Shown one piece after another: positions 35,684-52,702 of a stretch of DNA of 64,000 nucleotides. The DNA is taken from NCBI GenBank assembly GCA_028287305.1, contig JAQBPX010000015.1:62001-126000 (forward strand), in the 5' to 3' direction. Position numbers and translations under genes: made by a program. Source of the stretch: Gemmatimonadota bacterium. GTDB taxonomy: Bacteria; Gemmatimonadota; Gemmatimonadetes; Gemmatimonadales; Gemmatimonadaceae. The notes below the pieces were generated by a model. That model searched no databases and was not told where the DNA came from. It saw nothing but the letters and a program-made list of their open reading frames with translations. Each line of letters opens with the position of its first letter. The first letter of the stretch is position 1.

Positions 35684-37417
35684 ATGACTGACACGCCCGG
35701 CCCGTCGACCGTCGCCTACTTCTCGATGGAGATCTGCCTCGAGCAGGCGATCCCCACCTATTCCGGCGGCCTCGGCGTGCTTGCCGGTGACACGCTTCGC
35801 TCGGCAGCCGACCTTCGGGTGCCGCTCGTGGCCGTGACACTGCTGCACCGCAACGGCTACTTCCAGCAGAGCCTGGACGCCGAGGGCAACCAGTCGGAGC
35901 GCCCCGTGTCCTGGCGGCCCGAGGAACGCCTGGAGGAGATGCCGGCGCGCGTCGTGGTGCCGATCGAGGGGCGGGACGTCACCATTCGCGCGTGGCGCTA
36001 CCGGGTGATCGGCGGGTCCGGGCACGAGGTGCCCGTGTACCTGCTCGACAGCTCCGTGGATGGCAACAGCGACTGGGATCGCACGCTCACCGATTCCCTC
36101 TACGGCGGCGACCTGCACTACCGGCTCTGCCAGGAAGTGATCCTCGGCATCGGCGGCGCTGCCATGCTCCGGGAGCTCGGCCATGAGCCGATCGTCGCCT
36201 ATCACATGAACGAGGGACACGCGGCGCTCGTCACCGTGCCGCTGCTCGAGTGGCAGCTGGATGGCCGGCCGGTGTTCGAGGTGGAGGATGCGGACCTCGA
36301 GGCCGTGCGCCGCCGCACGATCTTCACCACGCACACGCCGGTGCCGGCGGGCCACGACAAGTTCCCACTGGACATGGTGCGCGCGGTGATCGGCGACAAG
36401 CGCGTGGAGCTGCTCGAGAAGGCGAAGTGCACGGACGAGGGCACGCTGAACATGACGCACATCGCGCTGCGCCTGTCGCGGTTCGTGAATGGCGTGGCGA
36501 TGAAGCACCGGGATGTCTCGCGCGGGATGTTCCCCACCTACCCGATCAACTCGATCACCAACGGCGTCCACGCCACCACGTGGACGTCGCCGCGCTTCCA
36601 GGCCCTCTTCGACGAGAGCATGCCGGAGTGGCGCACCGACAACCTGTACCTGCGCTACGCCGTGGGGATCGGGTTGCCCGAGATCCGGGCGGCACACATG
36701 GACTGCAAGAAGGAATTCCTGGAGGAGGTCGCGAAGCGCACCGGCGTGACGCTCGACGTGAACACCTTCACGATCGGGTTTGCGCGACGCGCGACGCCGT
36801 ACAAGCGCGCCGACCTGGTCTTCAGCGACGTCGAGCGCCTGGTGCGGATCACCGAGCACGTGGGCCCGTTGCAGATCGTGTTCGGCGGCAAGGCGCACCC
36901 GCATGATGGAGGCGGCAAGGAGCTCATCCACCGCATCCATGAGGCGGCGCGCGAGCTCGGCGACCGCGTGAAGGTCGTCTACATCGAGAACTACGAGATG
37001 GAAATCGCGGCGAAGATGGTGGCCGGCGTGGACCTCTGGCTGAACAACCCGATGAAGCCGCTGGAGGCGAGCGGCACGAGCGGGATGAAGGCCGCGATGA
37101 ATGGCGTGCCGAGCCTGTCGGTGCTGGACGGTTGGTGGATCGAGGGACACGTGGAGGGCGTCACGGGCTGGTCCATCGGGAGTGCCGTGGATCCCGAGGG
37201 CGACCAGAGCAAGGATGCGTTCGACCTCTACATGAAGCTGGAGCGCATCATCATGCCGCTGTACTACGGGCTGCCGTACGCATACGCGGAAGTGATGCGC
37301 CACGCGATCGCGCTCAACGGCAGCTTCTTCAACACGCAGCGGATGGTCGAGCAGTACGTGCGGAACGCGTACTTCCCGAATTCAGTGGTGAGCGTGGCGG
37401 AGGCGGTGGTAGCGTAG
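35684..37417 (+). CDS. glgP: Alpha-glucan (glycogen) phosphorylase
   Basis: GlgP releases glucose-1-phosphate from the non-reducing ends of glycogen, giving back the substrate of GlgC. The ATG at 35684 has GAGGA close before it; the 577-residue product starts MTDTPGPSTVAYFSME. It belongs to the shorter GT35 type. The pyridoxal-phosphate lysine is in EASGTSGMKAAMNG, followed by GVPSLSVLDGWWIEG, and the active-site gate lies near YPINSITNGVHA. It is the last gene of the cluster, 127 bp after treY. A 315-bp inverted-repeat element follows its stop. Confidence 0.95.
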   Translation: MTDTPGPSTVAYFSMEICLEQAIPTYSGGLGVLAGDTLRSAADLRVPLVAVTLLHRNGYFQQSLDAEGNQSERPVSWRPEERLEEMPARVVVPIEGRDVTIRAWRYRVIGGSGHEVPVYLLDSSVDGNSDWDRTLTDSLYGGDLHYRLCQEVILGIGGAAMLRELGHEPIVAYHMNEGHAALVTVPLLEWQLDGRPVFEVEDADLEAVRRRTIFTTHTPVPAGHDKFPLDMVRAVIGDKRVELLEKAKCTDEGTLNMTHIALRLSRFVNGVAMKHRDVSRGMFPTYPINSITNGVHATTWTSPRFQALFDESMPEWRTDNLYLRYAVGIGLPEIRAAHMDCKKEFLEEVAKRTGVTLDVNTFTIGFARRATPYKRADLVFSDVERLVRITEHVGPLQIVFGGKAHPHDGGGKELIHRIHEAARELGDRVKVVYIENYEMEIAAKMVAGVDLWLNNPMKPLEASGTSGMKAAMNGVPSLSVLDGWWIEGHVEGVTGWSIGSAVDPEGDQSKDAFDLYMKLERIIMPLYYGLPYAYAEVMRHAIALNGSFFNTQRMVEQYVRNAYFPNSVVSVAEAVVA

Positions 37418-37428
37418 GGGTTTGTTCT

Positions 37429-37743
37429 CGCGCTCAAGGAGTCCGGCTCCACGCACTCCACACCTCATGGTCTCCTGGCGTACCCGCATCCTTGGTTCCA
37501 ACGGAAACCTCCGCGGAACAACTGAGGCGGAGTTCACGGAAAGAGCAACAGCCCAGCTTTTGAAACAGCACACCCATCGGGCTCGAGCTCGATGGGTGTG
37601 CTGTTTCAAAGAGTCAGTTGTAGTGGTCGTGTCCGCGGAATCCGTATCTGTTGTTCCGCGGCTGGTTCCGTTGGAACCAAGGATGCGGGTACGCCACGAG
37701 ACCCAGAAGTGCGGAGCGCGAGGAGCCGGACTCCCTGAGCGCG
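37429..37743. repeat. 315-bp nested inverted-repeat element (112-nt arms around a perfect hairpin)
   Basis: This fills the 336-bp gap between glgP and the convergent flippase-like gene. The left arm 37429-37540 and the right arm 37632-37743 are both 112 nt and about 85% complementary by eye, including a perfect 31-nt block near 37488-37518. The 91-nt centre holds a perfect 21-bp stem (37560-37580 with 37591-37611) whose loop contains the palindrome GCTCGAGC. It is followed by CAGTTGTAGT, which also follows the related central hairpin at 44212-44250. No transposase or target-site duplication is seen. Confidence 0.85.
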
Positions 37744-37753
37744 CGAAGCCAAG

Positions 37754-38851
37754 TCACTCCGCCTCCACGAACTCCTCCTCCGCATCCTCCGTCTTCCTCA
37801 CCGCGCGCAACACCACGCCCCCCGCCACCAGCGCGCCGAGCACGATGTACAGGTAGAACGTGTACACCCGCCACCAGAGCAGCGCGGCCGGAAAGAACTG
37901 TGCGGGGATCACGCCACCTAGCGCCGCGCGAAAGGCCAGCTCCACGGCCCCACCACCCCCCGGCGCCGGCACCACCGCCGCTCCGTACAGGAGGCCGAGC
38001 GGCCAGAGCGCGAGCGGCGTCAGTGGCGTGTGTGGCGCAACGGGAAGCACGAGCGCCGGCAGCACGCACAGTCTCATGGCCACGTGCACGAACGAGGCGA
38101 CGAAGCTCGCGATCGCCCAGCCGGGATGCACGTCGCGCACGGCGGCCACCGTCTCTCGCACCTTCCCCAGCCAGCGCCCGAGCATCTCCCAGCGCCGCTC
38201 GCTGAGGCGCAGCCGCCGCGCCCACGCCGGAGGCTCATCGCCCACCTGCCGCCTGGCGAGCACGATCGCCACCGCGCCCACGCCCAGCACGAACGCGGCG
38301 TACATCCCGACGACTCCCACCAGCGCCGCCAGCACGCGTCCCGCATCGTGGAAGAGCACCGCCACCAGCACCACGACGGCCGCGAGCGACAGCATCTCCA
38401 GGAACAGCTCCGCGAACAGCACCACCAGCGCGCTCGACGCCGGGATGCCGGACTCGGCCAGCACCAGGAACCGCGCGGGCTCGGCGCCCGAGCGCGCCGG
38501 GGTGATCGAGCCACCGAAGTCGCCAGCCACCGTGATCTTCGTGGACACCCACAGCGGCAGCTCGATCCGCACGGCCTTCGCGCTCCACGTGATCTTGAGC
38601 GCGCGCGTGATGATCTCCGTCGCCACGGCGAGCAGCGCCAGCAGGTGCGATGTGAGCGGCAGGCCGAGCGCGGCGCCCTCGCGCGCGCGGCCCACGATCA
38701 GGTAGACGGACACGGCGATCACCGCGGCGAACGACGCGACGGTCACGAGCCAGCGGCGGATGTGCAGGAGGGTCGGGGCTCGGGGAGGCGCTACCGATGG
38801 TCGCCCCCAAGCTACGCGCCGAGCCGCCCGCCGTACACTTCTTGCCGACAT
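37754..38851 (-). CDS. Flippase-like integral membrane protein (YbhN/LPG synthase TM family)
   Basis: The 365-residue protein has about eight hydrophobic segments. It carries two marks of the UPF0104/lysylphosphatidylglycerol synthase transmembrane family: GDFGGSITPARSGAEPARFLV in the N-terminal half and VVPAPGGGGAVELAFRAALG in the C-terminal half. Members move or modify lipids or lipid-linked glycans; the substrate here is unknown. The start is uncertain: the annotated ATG precedes about 30 basic residues, and a later GTG is possible. It lies 8 bp from the divergent hydrolase start. Confidence 0.85.
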   Translation of the reverse strand: MSARSVRRAARRVAWGRPSVAPPRAPTLLHIRRWLVTVASFAAVIAVSVYLIVGRAREGAALGLPLTSHLLALLAVATEIITRALKITWSAKAVRIELPLWVSTKITVAGDFGGSITPARSGAEPARFLVLAESGIPASSALVVLFAELFLEMLSLAAVVVLVAVLFHDAGRVLAALVGVVGMYAAFVLGVGAVAIVLARRQVGDEPPAWARRLRLSERRWEMLGRWLGKVRETVAAVRDVHPGWAIASFVASFVHVAMRLCVLPALVLPVAPHTPLTPLALWPLGLLYGAAVVPAPGGGGAVELAFRAALGGVIPAQFFPAALLWWRVYTFYLYIVLGALVAGGVVLRAVRKTEDAEEEFVEAE

Positions 38852-38859
38852 CGGATTCC

Positions 38860-39628
38860 ATGATCATCACCGCCACGCGAGACGTGCCCGGCGGCACGCG
38901 CACCGACCTCGAGCTCACGGTGGGGCGCGAGCGCGTCCCGGGCATATTGCTGCGCCCGGCGCAGGGCTCGGCTCGCGCCCCCGCAGCCCTCCTGCTGCAC
39001 GGGCTCACCTCGCAGAAGGAGCGCATGGCGGACTCGGTGGGCATGGCGCTGCTGAAGAAGGACGTCGCCTCCCTCGCGATCGACCTGCCGCTGCATGGCA
39101 GTCGTGACGGCAGCGTTGCCGAGCTGCGCGGCGCCACGCCCTTCGCGCTCTTCGGCGTGTGGCGCTCGGCGCTCGGCGCTCGCCGAGGCGCGCGCGGCGC
39201 TCGAGCTGCTCGGGGCGCACGCGGGACTGGACGAGTCCCATCTCGGCGTCGTGGGCTACTCGCTCGGCTCCTATCTCGCACTCGCGCTCGCCTCCGACCA
39301 CGCGGCCATCCGCTGCGTGGCGCTGGCCGCGGGCGGCGACCTGCCGGATCGCACGCCCTTCGCCCCGCTGGTGCGCACCCTGCTGGATCCGCCCGCCATG
39401 GCGCGACGGCTTGCCGGCCGACCGCTGCTGATGGTGAGCGGTACGCGCGATCGCACCGTCACGCCCGCGCAAGCCACGCGGCTCTTCGAGGCGGCGCACG
39501 AGCCAAAGACCATCCGCTGGTACGACGGTGGCCACTGGCCGCCGCCGATGGCGATCAATGCGACGGCGAAGTGGGTCGCCGACTGCCTGCTCCCTTCCGC
39601 GCATAGAGCTCGAACCACGGCGCCGTGA
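38860..39628 (+). pseudogene. Alpha/beta hydrolase, frameshifted by a 7-bp tandem repeat
   Basis: Residues before the break (from MIITATRDVPGG; LLLHGLTSQKERMADS; AIDLPLHGSRDG) and after it (GVVGYSLGSYLALAL with the nucleophile Ser, GTRDRTVTPAQA with Asp, YDGGHWPP with His) together form one complete serine hydrolase of about 250 residues. They are in different frames. The break is at 39161-39181, where GGCGCTC is repeated three times; two copies would restore a continuous frame through VWRSALAEARAAL. The gene is therefore either broken, phase-variable or hit by a sequencing error. Its 3' end overlaps the convergent methyltransferase gene by 74 bp. Confidence 0.8.
39161..39181 (+). repeat. Three tandem copies of GGCGCTC inside the hydrolase gene
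   Basis: Perfect 7-bp units at 39161, 39168 and 39175. One unit more or less shifts the frame by one base, so copy number decides whether the hydrolase is made. Two copies give the intact frame. Confidence 0.85.
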
Positions 39629-40592
39629 CGATCTCGTCGTCCGGCGCGGCGTTGGCGACCAGCGCGAGCAGCGACTTCACCACGCGCTCCTCGATGCCCG
39701 CCCAGCGATGCGTGTACTCGTCCGCGATCGGGACGAGCACGTCGCCGTGCACGCGCTCCACCGTGAACCCCAACGGCTCGAGCAGGTGGCGAAGCGCGGC
39801 GGGCGTGAAGCCCACGCGATAGGGGAAGGCGAGCAGGTTGTTGTGCGCGAGCAGGAGCCGCGCCGCCTTCGCGAGCGGGCCGTGCAGGTGCGACCGCACG
39901 GCCGCGTAGAAGGCGCCGTTGGGAACGCGCAGCGCAAGCACGCCACCATCGCGCAGCATGGCCCCCGCCGCGTGCGCCGCGGCGCGCTGGTCAGGGAGCT
40001 GGTCAAAGGTGTTCCAGATCGCCACGGCATCCCACCGCCGGTGCGGCTCGGCGCGGCGCAGCTGCTCGACGGTTCCATCGTGCGCCGTGAAGCCCATCTC
40101 TCGCGTCACTTCGTTCGCGGCCGTGCTCACGTCCACGCCCTCGGCCTGCCACCCGGCGGCGTGCGCCTCCGCCAGGAAGGCACCGGCGTAACTCCCCACC
40201 TCGAGCACCGATCCGGTGCGCCCCAGCACTTCCCGCAGGCGCGTCGCCTGCGCGCGATACGCCGGGCGCTGGGTCTCGTGCAGCGCACGCAACACGTCCC
40301 CCGACGGCGGTTCTGCGACGTACGCGTCACGCAGCTCGGCGTCGCTCTCGGTGGGATTGCGGAACACGGCGCCGCATCGCGCGCAGCGCACCATGCGCAA
40401 CGGCGCATGCTGCGAGAACGCGACCCGGTCCAGCAGGCGCTCGACGGGCGTGCTGCCGTCGAGGCGCCGCTGGTGAAACTCCCACAGCTCTTCCACCTCG
40501 CGCCGCATGGCGTCCGGTCCGGCGATTTCCACGGCGTCCGTCGCTCCGCACGCCGGGCAATCGCTGAGCGTGTAGGAAATGCCCAGGCTCAC
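39555..40592 (-). CDS. SAM-dependent methyltransferase with N-terminal zinc ribbon
   Basis: I place the start at the GTG at 40592, which overlaps the stop of the upstream lipoprotein gene (GTGA). The 345-residue protein begins with a zinc-ribbon pair (CPACG near residue 9, CARCG near 60). A class I Rossmann methyltransferase domain follows: VLEVGSYAGAFLAEA is the SAM-binding loop, then GVDVS, and WNTFDQLPD in place of the usual post-motif. Such proteins often act on sugars or small molecules. Its C-terminal tail runs into the convergent hydrolase gene. A longer upstream open frame crosses the lipoprotein gene antiphase and is rejected. Confidence 0.86.
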   Translation of the reverse strand: MSLGISYTLSDCPACGATDAVEIAGPDAMRREVEELWEFHQRRLDGSTPVERLLDRVAFSQHAPLRMVRCARCGAVFRNPTESDAELRDAYVAEPPSGDVLRALHETQRPAYRAQATRLREVLGRTGSVLEVGSYAGAFLAEAHAAGWQAEGVDVSTAANEVTREMGFTAHDGTVEQLRRAEPHRRWDAVAIWNTFDQLPDQRAAAHAAGAMLRDGGVLALRVPNGAFYAAVRSHLHGPLAKAARLLLAHNNLLAFPYRVGFTPAALRHLLEPLGFTVERVHGDVLVPIADEYTHRWAGIEERVVKSLLALVANAAPDDEIVTAPWFELYARKGAGSRRPTSPSH

Positions 40593-41578
40593 GGGATGCG
40601 GAAGTACTGCACCTTGCCGTCGTTGAAGAGCGGCACCGCCAGCACGTGGCGCTTCGTGTCCACGCCGATGTCGGCGGGCGCCGCGACTCCCTTCGCGATG
40701 GTGGTCATGGCGCCGGCCGACAGCGAATGCACCGCGCTGTCGGCCCAGCTGCTCACCAGGATGCGCCCGTCCTTCAGCACCTCGATGCCGTCGTACTGTC
40801 CCGGGCCCGCACCGAGCGACGTGGGCGCCGCATCGCCATTCTTCCACGCCTGCACGTTCGGGCCGCCGAAGGGCGCCAGCACGAAGCGACCGTTGGCCGC
40901 GTCCCACGCGATGCCGTTCGGGTTGGCCAGCGAGTCGCCCTTCGCGACTTCCGTCACCTTGCCGCCCTGCAGGCGGAAGATGCGGTTGACGCCGGGGTGT
41001 GACATGCCACCCTTCGCGTCGAATGCGATGCCGGTGTCGGTGATGTACACCGCGCCGTCGCCGCCGATGGCGATGTCGTTGAGGAACGTCGCCTTCATCG
41101 CGCGCAGGTCGACGTTGGCGAGCACGGCCCCGGTCCGGCGATTGATGCCGCGCACCATGTCGATGTCGGCGACCCAGATCGTGTCGCCGCTGAGCGCCAT
41201 TCCCTTGGGCGCGTTGAGCACCACGCCCTTCTTGCCGCCCTCTGCCAGCATGGTCATGCTGCCCGTGCTGTCCGGATTGACCACGGCGATGAAGCCGTTA
41301 CCGTCCTTCTGTGATGGGTTGCCGTTGATGTTCGACACGTACCAGCGATCGAGCTCAGCGTCGTAGCGCACCGATTCCGGCGTCTTCATTCCTTCCGTGC
41401 TGCCCATCGGCGACGCGGTCGCCATGCTTGCTTTCGCGGCGCTGTCGCTTGCGCCGGTCGCGCTCGCGGAGGCAGAATCCGCCTTGTCGCCCCCGGCGGT
41501 GCAGGCGAGCGCGAACAGCGCGACGGTGCCCGCCATCAAGGGCGAAGGAATCGGTATCGAGCGGCCGGTGCGGGTCAT
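40589..41578 (-). CDS. Lipoprotein with beta-propeller (SMP-30/NHL-like)
   Basis: The start ATG at 41578 gives MTRTGRSIPIPSP followed by a hydrophobic stretch and a lipobox at LFALAC. A Ser/Ala-rich linker leads into a propeller-like domain with repeated strands (DRWYVSNINGNPSQKDGNG; GDTIWVADIDMVRGIN; GAVYITDTGIAFD; NGIAWDAANGRFVLAPFGG; DGRILVSSWADSAVHSL). The 329-residue protein resembles SMP-30/gluconolactonase-type proteins, but the metal-binding residues are not clear to me. Enzymatic activity is therefore uncertain. It is co-transcribed with the methyltransferase (4-bp overlap). Confidence 0.8.
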   Translation of the reverse strand: MTRTGRSIPIPSPLMAGTVALFALACTAGGDKADSASASATGASDSAAKASMATASPMGSTEGMKTPESVRYDAELDRWYVSNINGNPSQKDGNGFIAVVNPDSTGSMTMLAEGGKKGVVLNAPKGMALSGDTIWVADIDMVRGINRRTGAVLANVDLRAMKATFLNDIAIGGDGAVYITDTGIAFDAKGGMSHPGVNRIFRLQGGKVTEVAKGDSLANPNGIAWDAANGRFVLAPFGGPNVQAWKNGDAAPTSLGAGPGQYDGIEVLKDGRILVSSWADSAVHSLSAGAMTTIAKGVAAPADIGVDTKRHVLAVPLFNDGKVQYFRIP

Positions 41579-41685
41579 GTGAACCTCGTGCGGAGTGATG
41601 TGACGATCGTCGAACGGAGCAGGGCAGCCGGACGGGTGCTGAACGCGGGGAGGCCCTCCGAAAGTTGCATGCGGGCTGGCGCGCA

Positions 41686-44115
<2,430 letters not shown>

Positions 44116-44140
44116 GCATCCCGGCTCGGCTGGCATCGCG

Positions 44141-44320
44141 CGATTGAAACGCAGATTGCGCTGAACGGCAGCGGCAGATCGCTGCGGTACTACGAACTGC
44201 TTCCTGATTGAAACAGCACACCCATCGGATTCGAGCCCGACGGGTGTGCCGTTACAAGGAATCAGTTGTAGTTGGCAGTCATCTGCCGTTGCCGTGCAGC
44301 GGCCATTCGCGTTTCAATCG
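44141..44320. repeat. Nested inverted-repeat element related to 37429-37743 and to the GxxExxY flanks
   Basis: The left arm 44141-44209 (CGATTGAAACGCAGATTGCG onward) faces an imperfect inverted right arm 44260-44320 that ends GTTTCAATCG. The centre is a near-perfect stem (ACAGCACACCCATCGG with CCGACGGGTGTGCCGT). Both the stem and the following CAGTTGTAGT match the centre of the 37429 element closely. The arm sequence recurs at 50091-50130 and, inverted, at 50549-50579 around the GxxExxY gene. With the 111 bp after it, this fills the 316-bp gap before the BNR-repeat gene. Confidence 0.8.
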
Positions 44321-44367
44321 TTGGGATGCTCGCCTGGTCGCGATGCCCATACCGGCCACCTGAGCCC

Positions 44368-44396
44368 TTGCGCCACGGTCGCCCGGGCCCTTACTA
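44368..44396 (+). promoter_or_regulatory. Possible promoter of the BNR-repeat gene
   Basis: TTGCGC (44368-44373) and TTACTA (44391-44396) are 17 bp apart, 36 bp before the GTG start. Only a partial match to a sigma-70-type promoter. Confidence 0.25.
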
Positions 44397-44431
44397 GAAG
44401 CCACCCCAGTTCCAACCCATCCGGAGGCCCC

Positions 44432-47803
<3,372 letters not shown>

Positions 47804-47833
47804 CCCGGAAGGCGACCGGCGCGTCCAGTGGCA

Positions 47834-49048
47834 ATGCGGCTCCTCCTCTGGCAGTGGAGCACCGCGATCCAGGTGAGCAGCGTCCTGATGATCGCGGTGT
47901 TCTTCGCGGTCCTCAGCCGCTCCGTCCGCCGGGCGGAGCTTCGCTGGTGGGCACAGGCGTGGTGGGCGAACGTGGCGGCCCTCGCCGTGACGCTCACCTT
48001 CTGGCTGCTTGCCCCACCCACCGGCGTGAACCCGGTGCTGCGCGGCGCGTACGTCGGATGCAAGCTGGCCTTCACGCTGTTGCTCATGCAGGGCGCCCTG
48101 GCCATTCGACGGCCAGGCGCGCGCGTGCTCTCGCCGCGCGGATTCGCGGGCGTCATCGCCCTGTACGCGCTCGTGGGTGCCGCGTGGCTCTCCACCATCG
48201 ACCTGATCGGCATTGCGCAGCACGCCACGATGTCGGCTCTCTTCATCGGGTGCGGGCTGGTCATCGCGCGCGGCAACGAGCGCGGCTTTCGCTGGCTGGC
48301 CGCGGGCTTCCTGGTGCGCGGCTCGCTCGCCCTGGTCGAGTTCGTGGCCTACGTCATGGACTTCGCACCGCGATTCGCCCCGGCGCGGCTGTCTCCGCAG
48401 CTGCCGACCTTCCTCGCGGTGCATTCGTCGGTGGACAGCGGGAGCGAATGGCTGCTCGCGCTCGGCTGCGTGCTCGCGCTGTACGGACGCATCCAGCGCG
48501 AGCTCGAGCAGTACAACACCGAGTTGCTCGCCGCGCAGGAAGACCTTCGCCGGCTGGCGGATCGCGACCCGCTCACCGGGCTCGCGAATCGCCGCTCGCT
48601 GCCGGAGGCGTTCCGCAGCGTGCATGACGGAAGCGCCGCGCTGCTCTTCCTGGACCTCGACGACTTCAAGCGCATCAACGACCTGCACGGCCACGGCGCG
48701 GGCGACGACTGCCTCAGGCGCTTCGCCGATGCACTGCGCGAGAGCTTTCGCCCCGGCGACGTAGTGGTGCGCTACGCCGGCGACGAATTCGTGGTGGTCG
48801 CGCCCGGGCTCGATGAGGGCGCCGCCGCGCAACGCGTGGACGTGCTGCGCACGCACCTCGCCTCGCTGGACGGCCTGGCGATCACCTTCTCGGTGGGCAT
48901 CGTGACGCTGGCGGCCGGCGAGCGCGCGGATGAGGCGCTCGTGAAGGCGGACGAGGCGATGTATGCCGCCAAGTCGCAGCGCCGGCGCACCAGCAAGGTC
49001 ATGACGGCCGAGTTCCGCGCCGTGCGGCCGCCCGTGGCTGCGAAGTGA
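47834..49048 (+). CDS. Membrane-bound diguanylate cyclase
   Basis: The 404-residue protein has six or seven hydrophobic segments in the first 210 residues, then a short coiled coil (LEQYNTELLAAQEDLRRLAD) and a full GGDEF domain (DPLTGLANRR; LFLDLDDFKRINDLHGHGAGD). The signature reads AGDEF at 315-319, a variant that is often active. RPGD five residues before it is an RxxD I-site, which allows product inhibition by c-di-GMP. ATG at 47834 is chosen; GTG at 47828 is in frame. It makes c-di-GMP, which the HD-GYP protein at 10932 may remove. Confidence 0.92.
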   Translation: MRLLLWQWSTAIQVSSVLMIAVFFAVLSRSVRRAELRWWAQAWWANVAALAVTLTFWLLAPPTGVNPVLRGAYVGCKLAFTLLLMQGALAIRRPGARVLSPRGFAGVIALYALVGAAWLSTIDLIGIAQHATMSALFIGCGLVIARGNERGFRWLAAGFLVRGSLALVEFVAYVMDFAPRFAPARLSPQLPTFLAVHSSVDSGSEWLLALGCVLALYGRIQRELEQYNTELLAAQEDLRRLADRDPLTGLANRRSLPEAFRSVHDGSAALLFLDLDDFKRINDLHGHGAGDDCLRRFADALRESFRPGDVVVRYAGDEFVVVAPGLDEGAAAQRVDVLRTHLASLDGLAITFSVGIVTLAAGERADEALVKADEAMYAAKSQRRRTSKVMTAEFRAVRPPVAAK

Positions 49049-49088
49049 ACCTTCAAGTCGTAATTACTTCACGCTGCCTGGAACGAGC

Positions 49089-49985
49089 CTACACCGCATC
49101 CTCCGCATTCATCCCCATCGCATGGTAGCCCTTGTCCACGTACATCGTGGTGCCGGTGATGCCGCTCGCGAGGGGTGACGACAGGAACGCGGCAACGTTG
49201 CCCACCTCGTCCGCGTGCAGCGGCGACGTGAGCGGCGCGTTCTTCGACACGTACTCCACCATGCGGCCAATGATGCCGATCGCGCTCGCGGCGCGCGAGG
49301 CGAAGGGGCCCGCCGAGATGGTGTTCACGCGGATGCCGTGCTTGCGACCGGCCTCGTACGCGAGCACGCGCGTGTCGCTCTCGAGCGCGGCCTTGGCGGA
49401 CGACATGCCGCCCCCGTAGCCGGGAATCACGCGCTCGCTCGCCATGTACGTGAGCGAGAGGATGGATCCGTCGGCGCGCATCAGCGGTCCCAGTCGCTGC
49501 ACCATCGACACCAGCGAGTAGGCGCTCGCGCTCATCGCGGCCAGGTAGCCGTTGCGGCTCACCTCGAGCATCGGCTTCTTCACCTCGGGGCCATTCGCGA
49601 GCGAGTGCACGAGGATGTCCAGCGGCTGCGCGCCGAAGTCCGCCACGAGCCGCTCCGCCATCCCGGAGATGGAGCAGTCGCCCACGTCCTTGTAGCGCTT
49701 GCTCGAGCGGACGTCCTCGGGGATCTCGCCGAGCGTGTCGTACACGGCGTCGAGAGGGTAGATCTTCTCGAACTGCAGGAGCGACCCGTCGGAGAGGGCG
49801 CGTGACTCGTCCATCTTCCCGCGCTCGAGCAGGTTGAGGAAGATGTTCAGCGCCGGGGGCCAGGTCCCCACGCACACGGTGGCGCCGGCCTCGGCCAGCG
49901 ACTTGGCGATGGCGAACCCGAATCCCCCGTCATCAGCCACACCGGCGACGAGCGCGCGGCGGCCGGCCAGATCGATCTTGAGCAT
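49089..49985 (-). CDS. fabI: Enoyl-[acyl-carrier-protein] reductase FabI
   Basis: The enzyme reduces the enoyl-ACP double bond in the last step of each fatty acid elongation cycle. The 298-residue protein is the longer plant/chlamydial-type FabI, with a glycine-rich NAD-binding start ([18 protein letters not shown]) and an extra segment around [28 protein letters not shown] and YGGGMSSAK (Tyr-x6-Lys) hold the catalytic Tyr and Lys. The gene is alone on the minus strand. The short gap to the convergent diguanylate cyclase gene shows no clear terminator. Confidence 0.95.
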
Positions 49986-50090
49986 GCCCGGTAGATACGA
50001 AATCCGGGCGGGGCTGACAAGGTCCGGGGCGCGTGAAACGGCTGAGGTCTCCGGGGCCGATATGGGCTACCCTGATCCGGAAGGCTCCGT

Positions 50091-50130
50091 GCGATTGAAA
50101 CGCTGGGAGCCGCTGAACTGCAACGGCAGA
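50091..50130 (+). repeat. Upstream arm flanking the GxxExxY gene
   Basis: GCGATTGAAACGCTGGGAGC, then CGCTGAACTGCAACGGCAGA. It matches the left arm of the 44141-44320 element (GCGATTGAAACGC and CTGAACGGCAGCGGCAGA) and ends 8 nt before the ATG of the GxxExxY gene. Confidence 0.7.
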
Positions 50131-50138
50131 GGCACAGA

Positions 50139-50549
50139 ATGTCGATACCGAGGGTCCCGCTGCTCTACGCAGACATCTCGTCTGTCCTCCTCAAGTCCTT
50201 TTATGAAGTGCACAATGAGCTCGGTCACGGCTTCCTCGAGGCCATCTACCGGAAGGCTCTCGTGCGCGCCATGGCCGCCAACGGCCTGAAATGCGCCCAG
50301 GAGGTGCCGTTGAAGGTGCGTTTTCGCAACGAGGTCATCGGTCATTATCAGGCAGACGTGATCGTCGAGGAGAAAATCATCGTGGAGCTCAAGATCACCA
50401 GCCATATCGAGAAGGCGCATGAAGCGCAGCTCGTCAACTACCTGCGTGCAACCGACTACCGGCTTGGCTTCCTCCTGCTGTTCGGACCGACGCCGGCTTT
50501 CCGCCGAAAGATCAACACGAACAGGGTCGTCAGCGACGATCAGCCGTAG
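50139..50549 (+). CDS. GxxExxY protein, PD-(D/E)XK nuclease superfamily
   Basis: The 136-residue protein carries the family signature GFLEAIY (Gly31, Glu34, Tyr37) after the helix KSFYEVHNELGHG. A PD-(D/E)XK-like core follows: Asp73 in QADVIVEEK, the Glu83-Leu84-Lys85 triplet in IVELKI, and HEAQLVNYL with a Gln and Tyr as in RecB-type nucleases. The family is assigned to this nuclease fold by profile methods, but its function is unknown. Here the gene lies between inverted copies of the arm sequence of the intergenic elements, with very little spacer. It looks like cargo of, or driver for, that repeat family. Confidence 0.92.
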   Translation: MSIPRVPLLYADISSVLLKSFYEVHNELGHGFLEAIYRKALVRAMAANGLKCAQEVPLKVRFRNEVIGHYQADVIVEEKIIVELKITSHIEKAHEAQLVNYLRATDYRLGFLLLFGPTPAFRRKINTNRVVSDDQP

Positions 50550-50579
50550 CCGTTCAGCGCTGTCAGCGTTTTGTTTCAT
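50549..50579 (-). repeat. Downstream, inverted arm flanking the GxxExxY gene
   Basis: The reverse complement reads ATGAAACAAAACGCTGACAG, then CGCTGAACGGC. It is an imperfect inverted match to 50091-50130 and to the left arm at 44141. It begins at the last base of the gene's stop codon. Confidence 0.6.
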
Positions 50580-50642
50580 TTACTTGCCGTGCGTAGTTCG
50601 GGCTCGTTGCGCGCAGCCCCACAAGCTACGACGTTTCGCCCG

Positions 50643-51860
50643 ATGCTCGTCGAGCGAACGCCCAGCCCTCGCGCCACCGCGCACTCGTCCTTTGCCCGCG
50701 GCCTCTGGCGCATCGCGGCGGCAGACGTCTCCGGCGGCAATCGCGTGCGGCTGCTGCACGACGGCCCCGAGACCTTCGACGCGATGGTCGCGCTCATCGA
50801 GTCCGCCACCGCCGCCGTGGCGCTCGAGTCCTACATCCTCCGCTCCGACGAGGTCGGCGAGCGAATCGCCACGGCACTCCTCGCGGCCCGTGCGCGCGGC
50901 TGCACCGTCCGCCTGCTCTCCGACTGGATCGGCGCGCTCGGCATCGGGCGGCGCTTCGTGGCACGGCTGCGCGACGCGGGCATCGACGTCCGCTTCTTCA
51001 ACACGCCCGGCTTCCACCGCTGGCTCGGACTCGTGCCGCGCGACCATCGCAAGCTCCTCGTGGTGGACGAGCGCGCGGGCATCACGGGTGGCGTCGGCAT
51101 CGGTCGCGAATGGGTGGTCGGCTCGCGACGCCCGCGTCACGGCCGTGCCGGAAAGCCCTGGCGCGACACCGCCATCCAGATCGATGGCCCCGCCGCGCAC
51201 GACATGCAGCAGGCCTTCGACAACATCTGGAACCGGACTGACAAGCGCGGCCGCCGCGTGGAGCGCCGCGGAGCGCACAAGCTGCTCCGTCGCGAGGCCA
51301 GGGGAACTGCGCTCGCCCCTGAATCCGCTCCGCCGGCGCTCGTCGGCATCGTGGAGGGCGTGCCGCTCAAGCTCCGCATCGGCCGCGCGCTCCAGGTCCA
51401 GGCGATCTCCGCCGAGCGCTCGATCTGGATCGCCAGCGCCTACTTCATTCCCAGCTGGTCGGACGTGGAGGCGCTCACCGGCGCGGCGCGCGACGGCGTG
51501 GACGTGCGGCTCCTGGTGCCGAGCCGGAACGACCACCCGTGGGTGACCCTGCTGACACGCCGCTTCTATCGCCGGCTGCTCACCAACGGCGTCCGCATCT
51601 GGGAGTGGAAGGGCGAGATGATGCACGCGAAGACGACCGTGATCGACGGACGCTGGGTGCGCGTGGGATCCACCGACTTCAACGTGCTCGGCGTGGCGAT
51701 CAACTATGAGCTCGATGCGATCATCGAGGACGCCACACTCGGGAGCGAGGCGGAACGGATGTTTCTGGCAGATCTCGAGCGTTCCCGCGAGGTTCACCTC
51801 AAGGGGAGGAAGCGCAGCGGCACATCCGGTGCAAGCTCCTCGGACCGCACCCACTCCTGA
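50643..51860 (+). CDS. Cardiolipin synthase-like phospholipase D family protein
   Basis: The 405-residue protein has two HKD motifs: HRKLLVVD in VPRDHRKLLVVDERAG (near residue 137) and HAKTTVID in GEMMHAKTTVIDGRW (near 328). Each is followed by the expected Gly/Ser or Asn (GGVGIG, GSTDFN). It lacks the N-terminal membrane segments of the major cardiolipin synthase, which fits the ClsB-type soluble enzymes that join two phospholipids. ATG at 50643 is chosen; the frame extends further upstream through the repeat arm. The PAP2 phosphatase gene follows after 11 bp, which suggests a lipid-remodelling unit. Confidence 0.9.
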   Translation: MLVERTPSPRATAHSSFARGLWRIAAADVSGGNRVRLLHDGPETFDAMVALIESATAAVALESYILRSDEVGERIATALLAARARGCTVRLLSDWIGALGIGRRFVARLRDAGIDVRFFNTPGFHRWLGLVPRDHRKLLVVDERAGITGGVGIGREWVVGSRRPRHGRAGKPWRDTAIQIDGPAAHDMQQAFDNIWNRTDKRGRRVERRGAHKLLRREARGTALAPESAPPALVGIVEGVPLKLRIGRALQVQAISAERSIWIASAYFIPSWSDVEALTGAARDGVDVRLLVPSRNDHPWVTLLTRRFYRRLLTNGVRIWEWKGEMMHAKTTVIDGRWVRVGSTDFNVLGVAINYELDAIIEDATLGSEAERMFLADLERSREVHLKGRKRSGTSGASSSDRTHS

Positions 51861-51871
51861 CGAGGTCTTCC

Positions 51872-52702
51872 GTGCGTCGCACGACCGCATTCCTGCTGGC
51901 CGGCACCCTGCTCCTCGGTGCCCCGGCATCCCTCTTCGCGCAGGCCGACACCATTCACGCGCGCAAGACACCGCTCTTCACCCTGGCCGACGCCGCACTC
52001 TTCGGCGGATTCGCCCTCGCCACCGTGGCCGTCGCGCCGCTCGACCGCCACTACTCCACCGCGCTCCAGAATCCCAGCCGGCAGGCCGACAAGTTCTACA
52101 CGAGGACCGCCACCATCGTCCGCACGGTGGCGGATCCCGGCGCCATCATCATCGGCGTCTCCATGTACACGGCTGGCCGGCTCACGCACAATGCGAAGGC
52201 CGCGGACCTTGGCTGGCACGGCACCGAGGCGGTGATCGCCGGCGGCGCGCTCGGCGCGTTGATCAAGGGGCTCGCTGGCCGCGCCCGCCCCTACAAGTCG
52301 GCGGCCGACCCGAACCCGCACGACTACCAGTTCCTGCGCGGCTTCTCCGGCGGCAGCGACTACCAGTCGTTCCCGAGCGGGCACACCATCGCCGCGTTCG
52401 CCGCCGCATCAGCCGTCTCCAGCGAGACGAGCCGGTGGTGGCCGAACTCGCGCTGGCTCATCGGGCCCGTGATGTACGGTGGCGCATCGCTGGTCGGCGT
52501 CTCGCGCATGTACAACAACAAGCACTGGGCGAGCGACGTCATGACCGGCGCGCTCATCGGCACCTTTGCCGGCCTCAAGACGGTGCGCTATCACCACACG
52601 CATCCCGGCAATCGCCTCGACCGCTGGATGCTCGGCGCCTCCATCACGCCGCGCGCCAGCGGTGGCAGCAACGTGAGCCTCACCCTCACGCCGCAGTATT
52701 GA
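51872..52702 (+). CDS. PAP2-family phosphatase with signal peptide
   Basis: The 276-residue protein starts at the GTG at 51872 with a signal peptide ending LFAQ. The three acid-phosphatase motifs are complete: KGLAGRARP, SFPSGH and SRMYNNKHWASD (His nucleophile in the last). Hydrophobic helices surround them. The enzyme should dephosphorylate phosphatidate, undecaprenyl diphosphate or a similar lipid on the outer side of the membrane. It lies in a row of phospholipase D, PAP2 and RNA-ligase-like genes; the latter starts inside its stop codon (TTGA). Confidence 0.92.
   Translation: MRRTTAFLLAGTLLLGAPASLFAQADTIHARKTPLFTLADAALFGGFALATVAVAPLDRHYSTALQNPSRQADKFYTRTATIVRTVADPGAIIIGVSMYTAGRLTHNAKAADLGWHGTEAVIAGGALGALIKGLAGRARPYKSAADPNPHDYQFLRGFSGGSDYQSFPSGHTIAAFAAASAVSSETSRWWPNSRWLIGPVMYGGASLVGVSRMYNNKHWASDVMTGALIGTFAGLKTVRYHHTHPGNRLDRWMLGASITPRASGGSNVSLTLTPQY

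Follow-up and report, generated by a model that had tools for sequence, protein, structure and literature searches.

GxxExxY genes, a commonly annotated family for which we know of no established role, are often enclosed by inverted repeat arms, and this enclosure is real and general across many phyla. In the stretch of DNA that we analysed (the window; 64,000 nucleotides, C24:62001-126000, of a genome totalling 4.37 Mb), one such gene lies between arms that also occur in a gene-less element nearby. We give even chances to the reading that the gene and its arms form one unit, the coding member of a hairpin repeat family, and that the nuclease acts on the hairpins, which get copied or maintained.

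The gene, its arms and its gene-less relatives in the window

The gene of the window is located between an enoyl-ACP reductase gene and a cardiolipin synthase gene; i.e., it is intergenic, outside 23S rRNA, and its ORF occupies the loop of terminal inverted repeats. The features are as follows.

50139 to 50549, plus strand: GxxExxY / PDDEXK_3 gene, 136 aa, predicted RecB/Cas4-type PD-(D/E)XK nuclease (TIGR04256, PF13366)
50091 to 50130, plus strand: left arm (GCGATTGAAACGC...CTGAACTGCAACGGCAGA), inverted relative to the right arm, 82-83% match to the gene-less element
50540 to 50582, minus strand: right arm, inverted relative to the left arm; it overlaps the ORF at its 3' end
49089 to 49985, minus strand: enoyl-ACP reductase gene, neighbour of the GxxExxY gene
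50571 to 51860: cardiolipin-synthase-like gene, the other neighbour
44140 to 44321: gene-less element whose arms (about 44140-44200 and 44265-44321) belong to the family of the gene's arms; nested hairpin
44208 to 44257: core hairpin within the gene-less element; 21-nt arms, 86% complementary
37425 to 37747: second gene-less palindrome; outer arms 37425-37540 and 37632-37747, core hairpin 37559-37610

The arms pair in two stretches, 50111-50130 with 50540-50559 (20 nt, 85% complementary) and 50098-50110 with 50559-50571 (13 nt, 85% complementary), and they form the outermost stem in the predicted single-strand DNA fold of 50085-50585 (z -2.9). The first-pass annotation had the inverted copy start at the stop codon; an imperfect inverted arm is indeed present, but it already overlaps the last codons of the ORF. 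Enclosure was assessed by aligning the upstream flank to the reverse-complemented downstream flank, with cross-locus pairs as the null. By this alignment alone, support for the window locus is modest (score 33, p 0.014); what makes the case is the repeat family together with the other loci.

A genome-wide search with 44139-44322 retrieved the left gene arm (C24:112091-112130; 82-83%, E 7e-4 to 2e-3) and the right gene arm (C24:112537-112571; 83%, E 0.004), which bears out the earlier proposal that the sequence before the gene matches an arm of the gene-less element at 44141-44320. The pattern GCGATTGAAACGC-N-CTGAAC has three exact matches in the genome, namely the left arm of the gene, 44140 and C16:140166. 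The nested hairpin at 44140-44321 is far above chance (z -10.8). Its core matches 37559-37610 at 88%, as expected from the annotated core hairpin common to this element and the one at 37429, and recurs at many other places in the genome. The outer arms of the second palindrome are 116 nt long and 84% complementary, and its core is 96% complementary. The outer sequence of this palindrome of about 320 bp is unlike that of the 44140 element, the core hairpin being what they have in common. What the other members of the window arm family enclose varies: a core hairpin, a hairpin of a different family (L099) or unassigned DNA (L102). Nesting of this kind resembles the outcome of repeated insertion into hairpin loops. 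An Rfam search of 36000-52000 gave zero matches.

The genome contains seven GxxExxY genes, two of which have no clear arms. The GxxExxY genes other than that of the window use different arm families, and for L003-L007 the genome also holds gene-less palindromes that match these arms. Both flanks are repeated elsewhere for 4/7 GxxExxY genes vs 25/356 other genes; a whole-genome search adds L001 as a fifth. Two palindromes of about 540 bp (G000 C4:100056-100596 and C4:595824-596370) contain TCATCCTGAGCG...GATCTGCCGTTG, and a related string was found upstream of the GxxExxY gene L005.

The window protein scores 116 bits against TIGR04256 (cut-off 35) and 119 bits against PF13366 (cut-off 22); these are its sole domain matches, and a transposase domain is absent from the enclosed gene. 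Invariant or nearly invariant positions are G31, E34, Y37, D73, E83, K85, Q97 and Y101 (Y101 invariant or above 90%), among which E34, D73, E83, K85, Q97 and Y101 constitute a complete RecB-type catalytic set. The AlphaFold2 model (mean pLDDT 86.9) has its best PDB match in 4ic1, SSO0001 (Foldseek E 6e-4, Z 9.2), which we take to be a Cas4. Only two Foldseek matches fall below 0.001; restriction enzymes, LHK-Exo and Hjc follow at middling Z values, which are common and indicate the fold only. With D, E-x-K, QxxxY and the fold in place, GxxExxY is predicted to be a RecB-like PD-(D/E)XK nuclease, and domain scores, catalytic residues and model thus agree with the superfamily first assigned to it. 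It resembles Cas4/RecB-type exonucleases (4ic1 SSO0001, LHK-Exo, AddB, MGME1) in fold and in the E / D / ExK / QxxxY residues, whereas it has neither the Fe-S cysteine set nor adjoining helicase or CRISPR partner genes. Membership of Cas4 itself was rejected, as four Fe-S cysteines are required and the window protein has one cysteine. The protein may also be related to Hjc or lambda-exonuclease. The archaeal Holliday junction resolvase Hjc is likewise a small PD-(D/E)XK fold (Z 6.6) and a precedent for structure-specific cutting; however, it ranks below Cas4, and the QxxxY motif of GxxExxY is of the RecB type.

Enclosure and arm sequence across phyla

Among the GxxExxY loci of the own and related genomes, 24/60 beat p<0.003 vs cross-locus pairs. 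A second set of 76 loci covered Proteobacteria, Chloroflexi, Planctomycetes, Bacteroidetes, Verrucomicrobia, Acidobacteria, Cyanobacteria, archaea and others; it was drawn from the GPGLLES subgroup and is biased accordingly. Here, 34 loci reached a score of 40 vs 1/214 neighbouring control genes, so that GxxExxY genes are bounded by inverted arms more often than other genes, a check that had been proposed at the outset. Cross-pairs reached this score in 2.6% of cases, a rate that is elevated because the arms resemble one another across phyla. In an unbiased scan of contig C4 of the own genome (677 kb) for inverted repeats, five had loops of 250-600 nt: two hold GxxExxY genes, two hold TIGR02436 genes and one lies within GC-rich coding DNA. 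Four order-3 Markov sequences contained no inverted repeat with such loops. The genome is palindrome-rich (87 short-loop palindromes in C4), and terminators or other palindromes might accordingly flank the gene by chance; nevertheless, the control genes and the random sequence refute this explanation, and with arm sequence and orientation both conserved between phyla we regard it as scarcely credible.

Arms from different phyla consist of arrayed CACRRAG-like units, e.g., ACCACAGAG-N-ACACAGAG, in a fixed orientation, with CACGAAG, CACGGAG, CGCAGAG and CACCAAG as variants. The upstream arm exceeds 60% purine in 33/41 cases and is pyrimidine-rich in 0/41, and 6-mers repeated at a spacing of 6-14 occur in 29/33 arms vs 2.7 expected. 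Among pairs of the phyla set, arm similarity of at least 26 is found for 35% in the same orientation vs 3% in the opposite orientation. Arms of the Gemmatimonadota set are more diverse than those of the multi-phylum set. Arm similarity tracks protein identity (Mantel rho 0.61, p 0.0005; phyla set alone, rho 0.39, p 0.001). This covariation fits co-inheritance or recognition and does not separate the two.

The same architecture surrounds genes of the four-helix-bundle family TIGR02436, which we take to be the same family as S23p. Arms scoring at least 40 flank 15/28 TIGR02436 genes of relatives (L110-L139), and C4:614498-615103 and C4:624296-625051 are TIGR02436 genes inside inverted arms. These arms are short tandem-repeat arrays, e.g., AGAGTTG, GGACGGTA and TAGGTGT. 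Two unrelated proteins thus share one lifestyle, and the nuclease is not required for the loop-gene architecture; this sharing is the strongest argument that the hairpin, rather than the enzyme, is the common denominator. The hairpins may owe their spread to replication slippage, template switching or some other enzyme, with the small loop genes as cargo. This remains the main rival to our reading, although we consider it unlikely. The nesting of hairpins (L099 in the window arm family; CACAGAG inside CACGAAG arms in G077) is in its favour as well, whereas it does not account for the near absence of other enclosed genes (1/214 controls; C4 scan) or for arm sequence following protein sequence across phyla.

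The intervening sequence (IVS) of Coxiella has the same anatomy: its S23p four-helix-bundle ORF lies within terminal inverted repeats, and heptameric repeats precede the start codon (PMC4990558). GxxExxY elements share with the 23S rRNA IVS that carry an S23p/TIGR02436 ORF the inverted repeats at the ends, the short direct repeats ahead of the start codon and the small ORF in the loop; they differ in being intergenic rather than in rRNA and in the fold of the protein. Given this common anatomy, the arms could act as a transcript stem, as in the RNase III-processed 23S rRNA IVS, and the element would spread or be tolerated as RNA. However, the elements that we found are intergenic, and arm mismatches show no sense-strand G-U excess (103 sense vs 96 antisense, three sets); we therefore hold a role at the RNA level to be very improbable.

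Composite hairpins were observed at G077 C3:1654-1900 and similar places; their outer CACGAAG and inner CACAGAG arms are regularly spaced, about 44-56 nt apart.

Arm copy number, gene distribution and comparison with known systems

Arm copy number was compared with gene presence in three clades; the counts include the arms of the gene itself, which add only a few, and the p-values are optimistic, as the genomes are related and not fully independent. In 30 Thioalkalivibrio genomes searched with CCACRRAG-N1-3-CACRRAG, 7/9 carriers of the gene have 41-195 arm copies and 20/21 non-carriers have 0-8 (p 0.003). More copies accompany the gene also in 59 Gemmatimonad relatives (p 0.0003) and in 74 Mariprofundaceae, a set named after its centre genome Mariprofundus sp. 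EBB-1 (median 12 with the gene vs 5 without, p 0.0006). The gene and the repeats thus have the appearance of a single unit that spreads itself or is maintained jointly, and an association of this kind speaks against loop genes as mere cargo. In favour of cargo are G056 and G087, which are rich in arms (56-69 units) and have no detectable GxxExxY gene; possibly the gene was lost or the assembly is incomplete. Conversely, G072 (C1:634438) and G073 (C1:1207580) have a GxxExxY gene in genomes without any CACRRAG arm pair.

The protein is under purifying selection (dN/dS about 0.06 and 0.10 for intact pairs) and is therefore in use. The gene was found on 8/72,556 plasmids and 0/50,697 phages, with one copy per genome in Thioalkalivibrio against the seven of the own genome. 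A chromosomal gene under purifying selection, with few copies and a RecB/Cas4-like fold, might also be a host nuclease that targets hairpins, for the trimming of cruciforms, for repair or for regulation, and does not spread them. We find this rather improbable: the gene itself sits inside arms, it is distributed patchily (26/59 relatives), and decayed and truncated copies are common.

Under the preferred reading, in which the gene is the coding member of the repeat family, most members would be gene-less hairpins, and one or few per genome would carry GxxExxY between their arms. The target of the protein is most likely the sequence of the arms or the hairpin or cruciform that they form, and the protein would cut or trim DNA there. 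Subsequent repair or replication would copy or maintain hairpins at new intergenic sites, the loops of pre-existing hairpins among them. Several observations tell against this scheme: the TIGR02436 genes in like hairpins, the genomes in which arms and gene do not go together, the three arm types at one Thioalkalivibrio site, the lack of a target-site duplication, and the two GxxExxY genes of the own genome without clear arms.

This scheme resembles the REPIN/RAYT system. RAYTs are low-copy chromosomal genes, genomes with them hold more REPINs, and none were seen on plasmids (PMC8049555). The likeness extends to hairpins built from two inverted arms around a variable spacer, in many gene-less copies, to a low-copy chromosomal driver gene that is near-absent from plasmids, and to repeats that are more numerous in gene-carrying genomes (three clades). 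GxxExxY differs in being a PD-(D/E)XK nuclease, whereas RAYT is an HUH/Y1 transposase, and its arms are often arrays of 7-11-nt units with the gene in the loop. The first-pass annotation had suggested a nuclease member with hairpin derivatives in the manner of RAYT/REP pairs; the gene-less hairpins and the copy numbers in three clades uphold this in part, but it is too narrow, as TIGR02436 is enclosed likewise. MITEs and insertion sequences also have inverted ends and gene-less derivatives; in contrast, the GxxExxY elements have no transposase, no target-site duplication was seen, and their arms diverge between copies.

In the searchable literature, we found no description of an association between the GxxExxY nuclease and hairpins, and the arm sequence and PDDEXK_3 likewise each gave no matches. 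Intergenic hairpins of the CACAGAG/CACGAAG type occur in many phyla and have so far been without explanation; the link to GxxExxY offers both a testable function. It also suggests that REPIN/RAYT-like systems have more than one evolutionary origin, with an enzyme unrelated to RAYT, and gives context to the long-puzzling ORF-bearing 23S rRNA intervening sequences. More tentatively, and with somewhat less confidence than in the single-unit reading, GxxExxY could have founded a new class of bacterial selfish or domesticated elements, as a RecB/Cas4-type nuclease, rather than a transposase, that recognises hairpins of short tandem units and drives their dispersal across phyla; the four-helix-bundle (S23p) elements, including the rRNA IVS, would be a parallel branch.

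An empty and filled site in Thioalkalivibrio

An empty syntenic site, which had been named as a further check, was found in one genus. For the homing unit suggested in the first-pass annotation, such a pair of empty and filled alleles is what we observed, whereas neither a cleavage site nor a target duplication was seen. At one Thioalkalivibrio site, G084, G071, G080 and a diverged clade have a short spacer, and seven genomes, G061 among them, have GxxExxY. Three different arm types flank related genes at this single site: CACAGAG (G061, G081), CACGAAG (G079, G077, G099) and AGGAAGAAGG (G085, G076). Inheritance at the site is mixed with replacement; the copy of G099 is truncated, and that of G081 has several changed residues. 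When G061 was compared with the empty G084, the right junction was sharp (...GTGGTAA / TACAGGCCC) and the left junction was not; no target-site duplication was evident at the empty and filled site. In addition, a 204-bp gene-less hairpin is present in G077 and absent from G080 between conserved neighbours, with spacer divergence obscuring the junction.

At two further loci, L217 and L164, both ends of the GxxExxY gene adjoin an entire gene-less hairpin instead of one arm.
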